Positions 46,071 through 52,633 of a DNA stretch of 57,685 bases are shown in pieces. The stretch lies in assembly GCA_035765895.1 (NCBI GenBank), contig DASTWL010000009.1, positions 1 through 57,685 of the forward strand, read 5' to 3'. The position numbers were made by a program, and so were the translations under genes. The notes beneath the pieces were generated by a model. That model searched no databases and was not told where the DNA came from. It saw only the letters and a program-made list of their open reading frames with translations. Source of the DNA: Verrucomicrobiia bacterium (GTDB lineage: Bacteria; Verrucomicrobiota; Verrucomicrobiia; Limisphaerales; DSYF01). Within the stretch, counting starts at the first letter, position 1, and every line of letters starts with the position of its first letter.

Positions 46071-48032
46071 ATGGCCACGCTGAATTCCAACACCCCGTCC
46101 GGCCCGCTCGCGCAAAAGTGGGAAAAACACAAGTTCGCCACCAAGCTCATCAACCCGGCGAACAAGCGGAAATACAAGGTCATCGTCGTGGGTGCCGGCC
46201 TTGGTGGCGCATCCGCTGCCGCCACGCTGGCCGAACTCGGCTACGACGTGCACAACTTTGTGTTCCACGATTCGCCCCGGCGCGCCCACTCGGTCGCGGC
46301 GCAGGGCGGCATCAACGCGGCGAAGAATTACCAGAGCGACGGCGACTCGGTGTATCGCCTGTTTTACGACACCATCAAGGGCGGTGACTTCCGTTCGCGT
46401 GAAGCCAACGTGCACCGGCTCGCCGAAGTGTCGGTCAACATCATTGACCAGTGCGTCGCGCAGGGCGTGCCGTTTGCCCGCGAATACGGCGGCCTGCTCG
46501 ACAACCGCTCCTTCGGCGGCGCGCAGGTTTCCCGCACGTTCTACGCGCGCGGCCAGACCGGCCAGCAATTGCTGCTCGGCGCGTATTCGGCGTTGAACAA
46601 GATGATCGCCGCTGGTGGCGTGAAGTCTTACACGCATTCCGAAATGCTCGACCTCGTCGTGGTGGACGGCCACGCGAAGGGCATCATCGTTCGCAACCTC
46701 CAAACCGGCGAAATCACGCGGCACAACGCCGACGCGGTCGTGCTGGCGACGGGCGGTTATGGCAACGTGTTCAACCTCGCCACCTACGCGCGCGGCTCGA
46801 ACGCGACTGCGATCTGGCGCGCCTACAAGCGCGGCGCGTGCTTCGGCAACCCGTGCTACACGCAGATTCACCCGACGTGCATCCCCGTCAGCGGCGATTA
46901 CCAGTCGAAGCTCACGCTGATGAGCGAGTCGCTCCGCAACGACGGCCGCATCTGGGTGCCCAAGCGCAAGGAAGACTGCCAGAAGAACCCGGCGGACATT
47001 CCCGAGACGGACCGCGATTACTATCTCGAACGCATGTATGCGGCGTTTGGCAACCTCGCGCCCCGCGACATCGCGAGCCGCGCGGCCAAGCTGGTGTGCG
47101 ACGAAGGCCGCGGCGTCGGTCAGACCGGGCTGGGCGTGTATCTCGACTTCGCCGATTCGATCAAGCGTCTCGGCGAGGACAAGGTCCGCGAGCGTTATGG
47201 CAACCTGTTCGCGATGTATCACGAAATTACCAACGAGGACGCCTATAAAACGCCGATGCGCATCTATCCGGCGGTGCACTACACGATGGGCGGCCTGTGG
47301 GTGGATTACAACTTGATGAGCAATCTGCCCGGCCTGTTCGTGCTCGGTGAGGCGAACTTCTCCGACCACGGCGCCAACCGGCTCGGCGCCAGCGCGCTGA
47401 TGCAGGGCTTGAGCGACGGTTATTTCGTCTTGCCCGCGACCATCTCCGGTTATCTTGCGACGCAAAGCCCGGGCAAGCGTCCGGCGACGGACGATGGTTT
47501 CTTCAAGGAAGCCGAGGAGAACGTCCGCAACATCACCAAACGCCTGCTGGGCAACAAAGGCCGGCGCACGCCCGACAGCTTCCACAAACAGCTCGGCAAA
47601 CTCATGTGGGAATATTGCGGCATGGCCCGCAACAAGGCCGGACTCGAAAAGGGCATCAAGTTGATCGCCGAACTGCGTGCAGAGTATTGGCAGGACGTCA
47701 AGGTGGCCGGCGAAGAAGGCGAATGGAACCAGTCCCTCGAAAAGGCCGGGCGTGTGGCCGATTTCCTCGAACTGGGCGAACTTATGTGCCGCGACGCGTT
47801 GCACCGCGAGGAAAGCTGCGGCGGCCATTTCCGCGAGGAATATCAATACACCCAGGCCGATCCCGAAGTGAAGCAAGGTCTCGTCAACCCCGGCGACGTG
47901 AAGCGCCGCGACGATCAGTTCGCCTACGTGGCCGGCTGGGAATACGCCGGTTCACCCGACAAGGCGCCGATTCTGAACAAGGAACCGCTCGTGTATGAGG
48001 AGGTTCACATGAGCACGCGGAGCTATAAATGA
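46071..48032 (+). CDS. sdhA: Succinate dehydrogenase/fumarate reductase flavoprotein subunit
   Basis: The 653-residue subunit oxidises succinate to fumarate. It has the dinucleotide fold '[20 protein letters not shown]', the covalent FAD histidine in '[20 protein letters not shown]' and the '[15 protein letters not shown]' strand. It also has the active-site 'HPTCIP', '[18 protein letters not shown]' and '[20 protein letters not shown]'. The length fits the Bacteroidetes/Chlamydia-type enzyme. The next gene on the strand is not sdhB but an ORF6N-domain gene (54 bases on). Confidence 0.95.
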
Positions 48033-48086: not shown

Positions 48087-48725
48087 ATGAGCGAAGCCAA
48101 CCTCATCCCCGCCGGGCGCATTGAGCGCCGGATTCTGCTCCTGCGCGGGCAGAAGGTGATGTTGGATTTCGAGTTGGCTGAACTTTATGGCGTCGAAACA
48201 CGCACATTGAACCAGGCGGTCCAGCGCAATAAAGAGCGGTTCCCCGAGGATTTCATGTTTCAGCTCTCCGACCAGGAAGTTGCAACAGTTTTGAAATCAC
48301 AGATTGTGATTTCAAACGCCGAAACCCCCGAAATTCCCAAACAAAAGCCACGGAACTTGAAATCACAATTTGTGATTTCAAGTTTGGGCCACGGCGGACG
48401 GCGCAAGCCATACTTTGCCTTCACCGAACAGGGCGTCGCCATGCTTTCGAGCGTCCTGCGCAGCCCGCGCGCGGTGCTGGTCAACATCGCCATCATGCGG
48501 ACGTTCGTTCAGCTCCGGCAAATGCTGGCGTCGAGCGCGGAGATGTCCGGCAAGCTCGCGGCGTTGGAGGCGAAGTATGACAAGCAGTTCAAGGTGGTGT
48601 TCGACGCCATCCGCGAACTGATGAGTGACAAGGAAGCGTCGAAACCGAAGCGTGAAATCGGCTTTCACACCGCGATGCCCCGATCTGGCAAGGTCAATGG
48701 CCGGGTAAAGGCACGCAAATCGTAA
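48087..48725 (+). CDS. ORF6N-domain protein inserted between sdhA and sdhB
   Basis: The 212-residue protein begins '[20 protein letters not shown]', with '[20 protein letters not shown]', '[20 protein letters not shown]' and '[20 protein letters not shown]', the ORF6N (KilA-N-related) DNA-binding domain found in phage and mobile elements. The central block '[10 protein letters not shown]...[11 protein letters not shown]' repeats one motif twice, and each copy is encoded by a palindrome. The C-terminal part is helical and basic. ORF6N proteins are presumed DNA-binding regulators. It has no role in respiration and appears to have invaded the sdh operon without disrupting sdhA or sdhB. Confidence 0.88.
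48291..48315. repeat. Palindromic repeat, copy 2 (in the ORF6N coding region)
   Basis: TTGAAATCACA and TGTGATTTCAA, perfect 11-bp arms with a 3-base centre. In frame it encodes 'LKSQIVIS'. Confidence 0.85.
48354..48384. repeat. Palindromic repeat, copy 3 (in the ORF6N coding region)
   Basis: AACTTGAAATCACAA and TTGTGATTTCAAGTT, a perfect 15-bp inverted repeat with a single-base centre. In frame it encodes '[10 protein letters not shown]'. Confidence 0.9.
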
Positions 48726-48753: not shown

Positions 48754-49530
48754 ATGAAGGTTAAGTTGAAAGTCTGGCGGCAGAAGAACCGGAACACGCC
48801 CGGTCAGTTCAAAACCTACGAGACGCCCGAGCTGAACGAAAACATGTCGTTCCTGGAGATGCTCGATGTGGTTAATGAGGAACTAGCCAACAAGGGCGAG
48901 GAGCCGATTGCGTTCGACCACGACTGCCGTGAAGGCATCTGCGGCACCTGCTCGCTGGTCATTGACGGCAAACCACACGGACCGCACAAGGGCGTGGCGA
49001 CCTGTCAGACTTACATGCGCAGCTTCAGGGACGGCGACGTCATCTGCGTCGAGCCGTTCCGCGCGAAGGCGTTTCCGCTCATCATGGATCTCGTCGTGGA
49101 CCGCAAGGCCTTTGACCGCATCCAGCACGCGGGCGGCTTCATCAGCGTCCGCACCGGCGCTGCGCCGGACGCGAACTCGATTCCCGTGCCGAAGGAAAAT
49201 GCCGACCTTGCCATGGATGCGGCGCAATGCATCGGCTGCGGCGCTTGTGTGGCCGCGTGCAAGAACGCCAGCGCGATGCTGTTCGTCGCCGCGAAGGTTT
49301 CCCACCTTGGTTTGATGCCCCAAGGCCAGCCCGAGCGTTACAAGCGCGTCAAGGCGATGGTCGAGCAGATGGACAGGGAAGGCTTTGGCGCCTGCACGGT
49401 GACCGGCAGTTGCGAAGCCGTGTGCCCGAAGGAAATCAGCCTCGACTTCATCGCCCGCATGAACCGCGATTACGGCGTTGCCCTGCTCAAGGGCGATCCC
49501 AAGGCAATCGCTGGCGGTGGCGCTGGCTGA
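48754..49530 (+). CDS. sdhB: Succinate dehydrogenase iron-sulfur subunit
   Basis: The 258-residue subunit links the flavoprotein to the membrane anchor. It has the [2Fe-2S] motif '[17 protein letters not shown]', the [4Fe-4S] motif '[13 protein letters not shown]' and the [3Fe-4S] motif '[14 protein letters not shown]'. Length is normal. It begins 28 bases after the ORF6N stop; the gap contains repeated 'AATCGTAAATC' units. Whether it is still read from the sdhC promoter depends on transcription through the ORF6N gene. Confidence 0.95.
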
Positions 49531-49618
49531 TTTCATTTTCCAATCAACTTTCACGGCCCGTCACCGGCGACTGACTGGTGCCGGGCTTTCCGTTTTTACG
49601 GCTGAGGTCAGGCATCTC

Positions 49619-49658
49619 TACATCTGTAAAGATTCTGCTTGTCATCTTTACAGTTGTA
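49619..49658 (+). promoter_or_regulatory. Paired BlaI/MecI-type operators
   Basis: TACATCTGTA (49619-49628) and TACAGTTGTA (49649-49658) both match the TACA-nn-TGTA half-site pattern of BlaI/MecI repressors. The sequence between and around them is itself an inverted repeat (CTACATCTGTAAAGAT / ATCTTTACAGTTGTAG). They lie 34 bases before the repressor gene, suggesting autoregulation of the operon. Confidence 0.8.
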
Positions 49659-49691
49659 GAGATAGGCTCCCTGCATTGACGCAAAAATGCC

Positions 49692-50096
49692 ATGCCCCAA
49701 GCACCCGTTGAACTCACCGAGGCTGAATGGGCGGTGATCAAAGCCGTCTGGGAAACTGAACCCTGCACCGCTCCTGCCATTCAGGAAAGGCTTCACCCAC
49801 AGACGGCCTGGACCTATTCCACCGTGCGCACGCTCATGGACCGCATGGTTGGCAAGGGGCTGCTGACGGCGGTCAAGGAACGGCACGTCACACTTTACCG
49901 TTCCGCTGTGACGCGCGCCCAGGCGCAAAGGGGAGAACTGCTCTACGCCCTGAAGCACGCGTTCAACGGTGCGCTGGCTCCGATGGTTCAGTGCCTGCTC
50001 GAAACCGGGGATGTTTCACGGGACGAACTCGACAAGCTCAAACAACTCATTGCCGAGCACGAAAAGACGCGCGGCAAAACCGGAAAGAAATCATGA
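49692..50096 (+). CDS. BlaI/MecI/CopY-family transcriptional repressor
   Basis: The 134-residue winged-helix protein has the BlaI opening 'LTEAEWAVIKAVWETEPCTA', the recognition region 'TAWTYSTVRTLMDRMVGKGL' and a helical C-terminal dimerisation part. In this family a paired M56 metallopeptidase receptor triggers cleavage of the repressor. It overlaps the M56 gene by four bases (ATGA). Two matching operators lie upstream. No beta-lactamase gene is in the window, so the regulated target may be the M56 protein itself or something elsewhere. Confidence 0.9.
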   Translation: MPQAPVELTEAEWAVIKAVWETEPCTAPAIQERLHPQTAWTYSTVRTLMDRMVGKGLLTAVKERHVTLYRSAVTRAQAQRGELLYALKHAFNGALAPMVQCLLETGDVSRDELDKLKQLIAEHEKTRGKTGKKS

Positions 50097-52633
50097 ATAC
50101 CCTGTTGCAATGGCTGACTGCACCCGGCTGGGTGCTGGTGGTGAAGGCCTTGTTGCACTCGTTGTGGGAGGGCGCACTGGTGGCGCTGGTGCTGGCGATT
50201 GTGTTGCGGCGGGTGGGCAACCCGGCGGTTCGTTATCGGTTGGCGCTGGCGGGAATGGTTGTCGTTGTCGGGGCGACCTTGGTGACATGGGGGATATTAA
50301 ACTCGCCTCGATCGTCCCAACTCGGCGCCGCCCCAGCAGGGGCTGCCGACGCGCCCGTTATCGGGAGCGCGGGGCCGGTTAAAACCATTGTGGTGGTTGC
50401 GGTGCAGACTTCGCCGCCACCCTCACTCCAATGGACCACGTGGCTGGCGCTGGCTTGGGTGGTGGGCGCGAGCGTGATGCTGGGCCGGGCGAGTGTAAAG
50501 GTGGCAGGTGCAGAACAGTTGCGTCGCGCCAGCCGACCGCTCCAGGACGAAGTTGTCGACGCCCTCATTCGCGAGGTTAAGGCCGCAGTGAACCTGACCC
50601 GGCGGGTCCGTGTGGCGGTGACCGACCGCCTCACTTCGCCGGCAGTGGTGGGGGTGCTGGAGCCGACGCTGATTCTGCCGCTGGCGTTGATTACCACGTT
50701 TTCACCGGAACAACTGCGCTTCATCCTGCTGCACGAACTGGCGCACATCCGGCGCGGCGATTATCTGACGAACCTGTTCCAGTTGTTTGCCGAGGCGCTG
50801 TTCTTCTTCAATCCGGCCGTCTGGTGGCTCAGTCACCAAGTCCGCCGCGAACGCGAAGCCTGTTGTGACGCCCTCGCCATCGAACTCAGCGGCGCGCCGG
50901 CCGATTACGCGCGCACGCTGGTCAGCGTGGCGGAAACCATGTTGAACCCGGTGCTGGTGGCCGCGCCCGCGTTCGGAAATGAGCGCGAGCCGTCGTCGCT
51001 GGCAGACCGGGTGCATCGGGCCATGGTGCCCGGCTATCGACCTTCATTGCGTCTCACGTGGCGGGCGATGCTCACGGCACTCGTGCTGGGTGTTGGATTG
51101 TTGGGACTGCTCGCGATGGGGGCGCGAGAGACAGTGGCCGCCACCACTTCATTGCTCGGCACGAATCAACTCACGGAAGCGACGGGATCCGATACGGCGC
51201 AGCGACCTGAACGAGCTACAGATTCACAGCCCCTCCGAGCACACACAGACCGGCAGAACATCTTTGGGAAATTGAAAAATATCCGGTTGCCGCGGGTGGA
51301 ATTTGACGGTGTGTCCTTGGCCAAGGTGATCCGCTTCTTGAATGAGACGACCCGGCAAAGCGATCCGGCTGGGCAAGGCGTGAAGTTCACCTTGGCGGAA
51401 GGGGCAAAACCAGCCGCCGGCGCCAGGGTGGATCCCGCCACGGGGCTTCCGCTTGAACAGCCGGGCGGCGGCGCCATTGATCCGACCACGGGTCTGCCCT
51501 CAACGTCCGGCATGGCCGGCGGTTCATCGCCGGGCTCGGCAGTTATCACGGTCACGCCTGCCCGAAATGACATTTCTTTGCAGGCCGCGCTGGACGCAAT
51601 CGTGCGCGGATCGTCGGTGCCGATCAAATACTCGATTCTGGAGGATGGCGTGTGCTTTTCGGCTGCCGCGGCCAAGGGCGCACCGCAGCTTTACGTCCGC
51701 ACCTTCAAGGTGGACACAAATGCGCTCGCGCTGGCGCTGGGACGCGTCGGACCGGAGGCAAAGGTGAATCCGTCCGTTGCGTTGCATGAACTTTTCAGCA
51801 AGCTCGGCGTCGATTTCCAGCCCCCGAAAACATTGTTTTACAACGAACGTCAGGGGCTGGTCATCGTTCGGGCGACGCAGGCGGACCTCGACATCATTGA
51901 GCAGGTCGCTCAATTGCTGAATCAGACGCCGCCGCAGGTGAACATCCGGGCCAGGTTTGTGGAGGTGCCGGAAGATGTGTGGGCCAGACGCGGGCTTGGA
52001 TTTCTCGCCACAAGTAATCGGGTTGCTTCATTTACCGCTGTCATACTGCCAAAGCAGGCTGTGGAATTATTGGAACTATTGGACCGGGAAAATGGAGTCA
52101 GAAATCTTTCGTCTCCCTCCATAACCACATTGAGTGGCCGGCAGGCACAACTTGCGATGGGCACTTTTGGAATTGCCGCAGCCCGTATCAATCCAATGGC
52201 TTTGACGCCGCCCGGCATTCTGATCACGAACGGAAACGATTTGTCGCTTTATCTGACTGATACGAACTCGATTAAAGACGGCCTGACGCTTGATGTCATT
52301 CCGTCGGTCAGCGCGGATGGGCAAACCATTGAACTGGCAACCACCACAACTTTTAATTCATTTATTGGTTACGATGAGCCGACCAACTTCGTCACCATCT
52401 ACACCAATGGCATAGCTGGAAAGCTTGGCGTTCCGCTGCCGAACCAACTGAAAAATCAGATCAAATCAACTGCTGTCGTTGCAGATGGCCAGACAATGGT
52501 GCTTGGCGGCGCCTTATCGGCAGAAGACCACACGGCAAGTAAAGTTAAACGGACGGGAAAAATGCAGCTGCTCGTCTTTGTCACCCCCACCATTATTGAC
52601 CCGGCGGGCAATCGGGTTCACCCGGACAAATAG
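50093..52633 (+). CDS. M56 (BlaR1-like) metallopeptidase fused to a secretin-like domain
   Basis: The 846-residue protein opens with membrane helices. The M56 zinc peptidase domain follows: 'LHELAHIRRGDYLTNLFQLF' with HELAH at 214-218, then 'RREREACCDALAIEL' with the third ligand Glu. A further membrane segment lies near 325-345. In place of a penicillin-binding sensor domain, the C terminus has STN/N0-like segments (about 400-440 and 490-520) and an N1-type repeat (about 538-610). A secretin-type beta domain ends it: 'VNIRARFVEVPEDVWARRGL', 'LSSPSITTLSGRQAQLAMG', 'VVADGQTMVLGGAL', 'LLVFVTPTII'. Secretins form outer-membrane pores; fusion to M56 is unusual. Signal and substrate are unknown. 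Confidence 0.85.
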   Translation: MNTLLQWLTAPGWVLVVKALLHSLWEGALVALVLAIVLRRVGNPAVRYRLALAGMVVVVGATLVTWGILNSPRSSQLGAAPAGAADAPVIGSAGPVKTIVVVAVQTSPPPSLQWTTWLALAWVVGASVMLGRASVKVAGAEQLRRASRPLQDEVVDALIREVKAAVNLTRRVRVAVTDRLTSPAVVGVLEPTLILPLALITTFSPEQLRFILLHELAHIRRGDYLTNLFQLFAEALFFFNPAVWWLSHQVRREREACCDALAIELSGAPADYARTLVSVAETMLNPVLVAAPAFGNEREPSSLADRVHRAMVPGYRPSLRLTWRAMLTALVLGVGLLGLLAMGARETVAATTSLLGTNQLTEATGSDTAQRPERATDSQPLRAHTDRQNIFGKLKNIRLPRVEFDGVSLAKVIRFLNETTRQSDPAGQGVKFTLAEGAKPAAGARVDPATGLPLEQPGGGAIDPTTGLPSTSGMAGGSSPGSAVITVTPARNDISLQAALDAIVRGSSVPIKYSILEDGVCFSAAAAKGAPQLYVRTFKVDTNALALALGRVGPEAKVNPSVALHELFSKLGVDFQPPKTLFYNERQGLVIVRATQADLDIIEQVAQLLNQTPPQVNIRARFVEVPEDVWARRGLGFLATSNRVASFTAVILPKQAVELLELLDRENGVRNLSSPSITTLSGRQAQLAMGTFGIAAARINPMALTPPGILITNGNDLSLYLTDTNSIKDGLTLDVIPSVSADGQTIELATTTTFNSFIGYDEPTNFVTIYTNGIAGKLGVPLPNQLKNQIKSTAVVADGQTMVLGGALSAEDHTASKVKRTGKMQLLVFVTPTIIDPAGNRVHPDK

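Follow-up and report, generated by a model that had tools for sequence, protein, structure and literature searches.

The window, by which we mean the whole stretch of 57,685 nucleotides that was analysed, contains a gene for a BlaI-type repressor followed by a single open frame in which an M56 protease is joined to a secretin-derived C terminus (Table 1). Staphylococcus uses this kind of switch to sense penicillin, and it is for sensing antibiotics that BlaR1-type switches are mainly known. The blaI product matched PF03965 (Penicillinase_R) with 94.2 bits against a Pfam cut-off of 22.6 and the fusion matched PF05569 (Peptidase_M56) with 134.5 bits over residues 29-291, above the cut-off of 31, which confirms the BlaI repressor coupled to an M56 protease that an earlier, sequence-only reading of this DNA had proposed; the ATGA overlap of the two genes was likewise found as described there, and the operon looks like a working one. 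The genome of the window has a single M56 gene and a single PF03965 (blaI) gene above the cut-off, and no beta-lactamase or PBP gene was linked to the operon in the flanks read around it. Upstream in the window, an ORF6N-domain gene (PF10543, 113.9 bits; 48087-48725), presumably phage antirepressor-like, lies between the succinate dehydrogenase genes sdhA (46071-48032) and sdhB (48754-49530).

Table 1. Features of the blaI-M56-secretin operon in the window
Feature	Position	Strand	Basis or remark
BlaI operator 1, palindrome TCTNTACANNTGTANAGA	49615..49632	.	upstream of the -35-like box
Putative -35-like box TTGTCA between the operators	49639..49644	+	read directly; relatives compared by eye
BlaI operator 2, TCTNTACANNTGTANAGA	49645..49662	.	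30 bp from operator 1
blaI, repressor, 134 aa	49692..50096	+	PF03965 match
ATGA overlap, blaI end and fusion start	50093-50096
M56-secretin fusion gene, 846 codons	50093..52633	+	one open frame
M56 protease domain, residues 29-291	50177..50965	+	PF05569; VIA match to BlaR1
Last M56 helix, residues 323-356, putative transmembrane	51059..51160	+	AlphaFold2 model, BlaR1 layout
PilQ N-domain-like region, residues 383-548	51239..51736	+	Amuc_1098 match; homology to own PilQ
Secretin_N-like domain, residues 560-613	51770..51931	+	PF03958 below cut-off; AlphaFold2 secondary structure
Secretin core, residues 647-835	52031..52597	+	PF00263; Foldseek and VIA matches to GspD and PilQ
Lip junction without VPxLGDxPxxGxLF, residues 808-823	52514..52561	+	alignments with free PilQs

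In the protease half, the zinc set (H214-E215-xx-H218 and E255) and the active-site residue D259 have the same spacing as the zinc ligands and active site H201/H205/E242/D246 of BlaR1, as given in PMC9834060. An AlphaFold2 model (mean pLDDT 78, pTM 0.54) matched BlaR1 (8exs) over residues 16-304 with a VIA Z-score of 20.5, and Foldseek matched BlaR1 and secretins each independently. The arrangement of the domains relative to one another is unreliable because of the pTM of 0.54. From the model and the analogy with BlaR1, the chain beyond helix 323-356 would be periplasmic. The NCBIfam profile blaR1_generic (NF000326) reached 87.7 of the 400 bits needed, over residues 116-281 only, and no penicillin-binding domain was listed for the fusion by Pfam or NCBIfam, which sets the protein outside the beta-lactam receptors.

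The position that the sensor has in BlaR1, behind the last M56 helix, is taken by the secretin part. PF00263 (Secretin) matched residues 663-815 with 43.4 bits, above the Pfam cut-off of 27.5, PF03958 (Secretin_N) matched residues 574-613 with 15.6 bits, under the cut-off, and residues 378-637 resemble Amuc_1098, the verrucomicrobial PilQ (NCBIfam NF042912), with 94.1 bits compared to the 750 bits required of an equivalog, so that the fusion is not itself an Amuc_1098 PilQ. Structural comparison with GspD and PilQ gave matches to both, since residues ~529-846 of the model fitted GspD with a VIA Z-score of 11.0 and residues 401-837 fitted PilQ (6w6m) with a Z-score of 10.3 but an rmsd of 19.6. 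N-domain, Secretin_N and secretin core are all homologous to the PilQ encoded in the same genome. Together with the Foldseek result, these matches uphold a secretin-derived C terminus in place of the penicillin sensor. The sequence-only reading had described STN/N1-like and secretin-type segments, of which the latter stand, whereas neither STN (PF07660) nor FecR_C (PF16344) gave a Pfam match in the window protein at E <= 10; Pfam matched no ectodomain other than the PilQ/secretin type.

Operators and reach of the circuit

The 18-mer TCTNTACANNTGTANAGA, searched with at most one mismatch, has only these two sites in 4.64 Mb and none in a reversed control, so that the paired operators noticed earlier are real. 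At the same promoter, TACANNTGTA occurs exactly at 49618-49629 and 49648-49659, and relatives having two exact sites show a spacing of 30-32 bp. The -35-like box reads TTGAC in most relatives when compared by eye; because a generic promoter scan detected no promoter at the window operon, the box is regarded as putative.

An exact TACANNTGTA was found within 220 nt upstream of blaI in 35 out of 45 frames, with 49 sites across the 471,776 bp of those blaI loci. Three of the ten misses have their upstream region cut off at a contig end, and L143, L160, L162 and L164-L167 lack an exact site within this distance despite the presence of blaI. Of 320 genomes, 29 contained paired operators around TTGNC, each of them exactly one pair, and the reversed control contained none. 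The pairs precede blaI-M56 in 28 of these 29 genomes, the sole pair without blaI (L255) being located at a contig end.

A search for further regulon targets with YTACANNTGTAR yielded 4 palindromic sites in the genome of the window, two of them the operators, compared to 12 in the reversed control. The third site, at the start of a frame that we take to be SufU-like and just past a short, presumably toxin-like frame, and the fourth, within a coding frame, were both rejected as targets, and the contig carrying the genome's own PilQ has no YTACANNTGTAR site. As the operator pair is present once per genome, before blaI-M56, and the PilQ contig lacks YTACANNTGTAR, the circuit appears to be closed on itself. 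It looks self-contained, which is a provisional statement because the strict operator pattern misses degenerate targets, and in the absence of any second promoter matching the pattern, the fusion itself seems to be what the circuit puts out.

The absence of a second operator-pair promoter in any of the 29 genomes, and of a promoter-like second site in the genome of the window, means that the only visible output is more protease, as would also be expected if the main substrates were envelope or membrane proteins and BlaI cleavage only scaled the amount of a quality-control protease. Such an enzyme could not reach secretins in the periplasm, since BlaR1-type active sites face the cytoplasm according to PMC9834060, and we consider this alternative improbable.

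Compared to BlaR1/BlaI and MecR1/MecI of S. aureus, the window system is alike in its BlaI-type repressor, in the H/H/E + D spacing of an M56 gluzincin and in its membrane layout, and TACA-nn-TGTA is, we assume, the operator type common to all of them. It differs in carrying a PilQ-like secretin part instead of the penicillin-binding sensor and in that the flanks read contain no beta-lactamase or PBP gene linked to the operon and no second promoter with the same operator pair was found.

Distribution and probable exchange of the secretin module

The fusion is no isolated oddity, which answers a count across genomes that the earlier reading had suggested: at least 48 fusion ORFs were identified in 48 loci of the order Limisphaerales, each from a different genome, and 5 further fusions of the order are L259, L261, L262, L263 and L265, all these counts being lower bounds as three candidates were scored in most of the 320 genomes and only the matches listed are included. 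The 48 frames are intact, and therefore the possibility of two separate genes was not borne out. Every one of them carries HExxH together with E at +41 and D at +45, and blaI adjoins the fusion on the same strand in 46, the other 2 beginning at a contig edge. L142, in which the M56 frame is broken, was excluded as evidence. No fusion outside the order was found in a search of the phylum (28 of 387 genomes matched, 29 loci read), and no description of a BlaR1/M56-secretin fusion was found in the open-access literature. We regard the fusion as a real, conserved variant of the BlaR1/BlaI-type sensor.

Among the 71 M56 loci L025-L095, of which at least three belong to the order and the rest mostly to Planctomycetota and Bacteroidota, no M56 frame includes a secretin core. 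Several M56 proteins of Planctomycetota and relatives among them, with CarboxypepD_reg (L027, L029, L033, L036, L041, L046), resemble the fusion in their large C-terminal ectodomain and differ from it in lacking the secretin core. In L047 (Pontiellaceae), a full GspD-type gene (PF00263, 141 bits) follows M56 and was taken as unlinked. Elsewhere in the phylum, in other orders and classes, there are M56 proteins with an N0/STN-like ectodomain and no secretin core (L276, L279, L281, L287), STN and FecR_C both being above their cut-offs in L287.

In an M56 tree of the quick kind (143 rows), the domains with a secretin part fall into three separate groups of 33, 11 and 4 fusions; L023 is marked as lacking the part in this tree only because the end of the contig truncates it. 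The secretin cores, including orphan and split ones (52 rows), are placed on one side and the 27 PilQs on the other (99/95), and a single clade for the nine secretin cores of the window's M56 group was rejected (p-AU 7.7e-94). Since secretin and protease trees disagree, the simplest account would be that the secretin module was swapped between M56 lineages.

Unfused versions of the parts were also encountered. On the minus strand of L163 (2572-5696), a protein resembling secretins, whose start looks like a leader when judged by eye, is followed by the two operators, blaI and then an M56 protein of 371 aa that, again by eye, ends shortly after the last helix and has no sensor domain. In L184 (7969-10001), the fusion is followed in the same operon by two more ORFs with a secretin core, which overlap end to start and begin with leader-like N termini. 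L257 was rejected as a second split system because its M56 frame, at the point of junction, meets a gap in the assembly (X). Two blaI-M56 pairs occur back to back in L172, L174 and L177, one of them with remnants only of a secretin core. In the giant frames L019 (4600-9582, 1661 aa) and L024 (5001-10364, 1788 aa), the M56 domain is followed by CarboxypepD_reg repeats, by TPR and by a secretin core.

These observations bear on the idea that the secretin part has a merely passive role, as a spacer or as a scaffold for oligomerisation by which the protease is kept clustered, with sensing located elsewhere, e.g. in the helix 2-3 loop or in the CarboxypepD_reg repeats of long members. Such repeats do lie between M56 and secretin core in L019 and L024, M56 proteins of other phyla have them without a secretin, and the fusion frames, measured between stops, vary in size (665-1818 residues, a contig edge truncating the frame at the lower end). 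Repeated exchange between M56 lineages and persistence as a separate protein beside the operon, as in L163, are nevertheless unexpected for a spacer, and the window protein has no other matched ectodomain, so that we rate this explanation as rather unlikely.

The lip segment and the possibility of a pore

The segment VPxLGDxPxxGxLF is common to the genome's own PilQ and to solved secretins, and we take it to be the membrane-inserting amphipathic helical loop (AHL) of the lip; a search of open-access papers did not find the lip motif strings in print. The AHL is described as present in all secretins solved by 2019, as highly conserved and as key to membrane insertion in PMC6532946 and PMC7545093. 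Among the sequences used, all 27 free PilQs of the order showed the lip pattern P..G..P (they come from a sample of 30 chosen by likeness to the genome's own PilQ, beyond which other secretin paralogues might group among the fusions), as against 17 of the 45 secretin cores taken from fusions (out of 48), three sequences on either side having been left out because of an incomplete or weak secretin match. At most 7 residues remain at the lip site in 18 of the 45 fusions, and L165 has the complete pattern except for one proline. In the window protein, the motif is gone and the alignment retains no residues at the lip site; the loop at 812-819 of the model is of low confidence. On a secretin tree made without the lip columns, the trait changed at least 12 times, which, combined with the counts of 27/27 and 17/45, indicates that PilQ retains the segment and that the fusions lost it repeatedly. 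As 17 fusions keep the motif, loss is common and not general, and judging by their sequence those members could still insert, giving a mixed picture.

Amuc_1098/PilQ, the type IV pilus secretin of Verrucomicrobia, was shown to be located in the outer membrane in PMC4960237; its N-domain, Secretin_N and secretin core are homologous to those of the fusion, which differs in being joined to an inner-membrane protease, in having no leader and in lacking VPxLGDxPxxGxLF. It had been suggested from the sequence that the protein could link a proteolytic switch to a pore, as would be the case if a secretin multimer reached the outer membrane and M56 coupled assembly of a real gated pore to gene control. 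The secretin core fold is kept, the lip motif persists in part of the fusions, and secretins can multimerise at the inner membrane, as stated in PMC10329019. For the window protein, this suggestion is not supported, because it is without the lip motif found in every free PilQ counted and its secretin part, which follows the last M56 helix, is predicted to be anchored at the inner membrane, with no cleavable leader. We therefore judge a gated pore to be very unlikely. Provided that VPxLGDxPxxGxLF is the AHL, the window protein would fall outside the functional outer-membrane channels, and with the part for outer-membrane entry missing it is more likely an envelope sensor than a pore.

A putative envelope sensor

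We favour, with somewhat better than even confidence, an autoregulated proteolytic switch of the BlaI/BlaR1 type in which a pseudo-secretin serves as envelope sensor. By analogy with BlaI/MecI systems, BlaI dimers on both operators around the promoter would keep the blaI-M56 operon low, and by analogy with BlaR1, M56 would be an inner-membrane protein whose zinc site faces the cytoplasm and whose PilQ-derived N-domain and secretin part lie in the periplasm. The lip-less secretin part would form no outer-membrane pore and would bind to or co-assemble with a periplasmic partner, and ligand or assembly state might alter the protease; cleavage of BlaI would then derepress the operon and produce more of the sensor-protease. 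The envelope sensing raised by the sequence-only reading is supported as an inference; the sensing of secretin assembly, raised there as well, is a guess.

For the partner, the genome's own free PilQ is our leading guess, a tentative one, made because the secretin part is homologous to free PilQ and because the binding of PupB by PupR offers a model. The periplasmic domain of PupR, with its STN subdomain, binds the STN-type signalling domain of the outer-membrane protein PupB, according to PMC7186176. The PupR/FecR regulators of cell-surface signalling resemble the layout predicted for the fusion, being inner-membrane regulators whose periplasmic portion includes an N domain of the secretin/TonB type, and the M56 protein L287 of the phylum likewise bears STN and FecR_C. 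The window protein differs from them in having a whole secretin core and no STN or FecR_C match by Pfam, and its output would be a repressor-cleaving protease rather than an anti-sigma factor. Extending this analogy, the fusion may possibly act in secretin surveillance, as a mock protomer tethered to the inner membrane that binds free PilQ, other secretin subunits or N0 domains, the assembly status of which would set the protease; we put this forward with reserve, as a minority expectation. PilQ is present in 172 of 196 sampled genomes of the order, and its co-occurrence with the fusion therefore says little.

Within one bacterial order, the BlaR1 chassis carries a relative of a pilus pore, in different M56 lineages and often with loss of the lip motif, which makes the fusion a concrete and testable case of secretin parts becoming sensors and a candidate answer to the role of some M56-BlaI pairs without a penicillin sensor. 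If the surveillance reading is true, Limisphaerales would have a stress switch that amplifies itself and is dedicated to pilus or secretion pores. With its clean single promoter, the circuit could easily be rebuilt as a reporter.

The gene context gives no clue to the signal, as no neighbour gene conserved across families was found in 49 loci. A peroxiredoxin gene, presumably of the Bcp type, lies near the operon in six loci (L138, L147, L150, L156, L019 and L024), and its recurrence probably reflects shared gene order, all six loci belonging to family f55.
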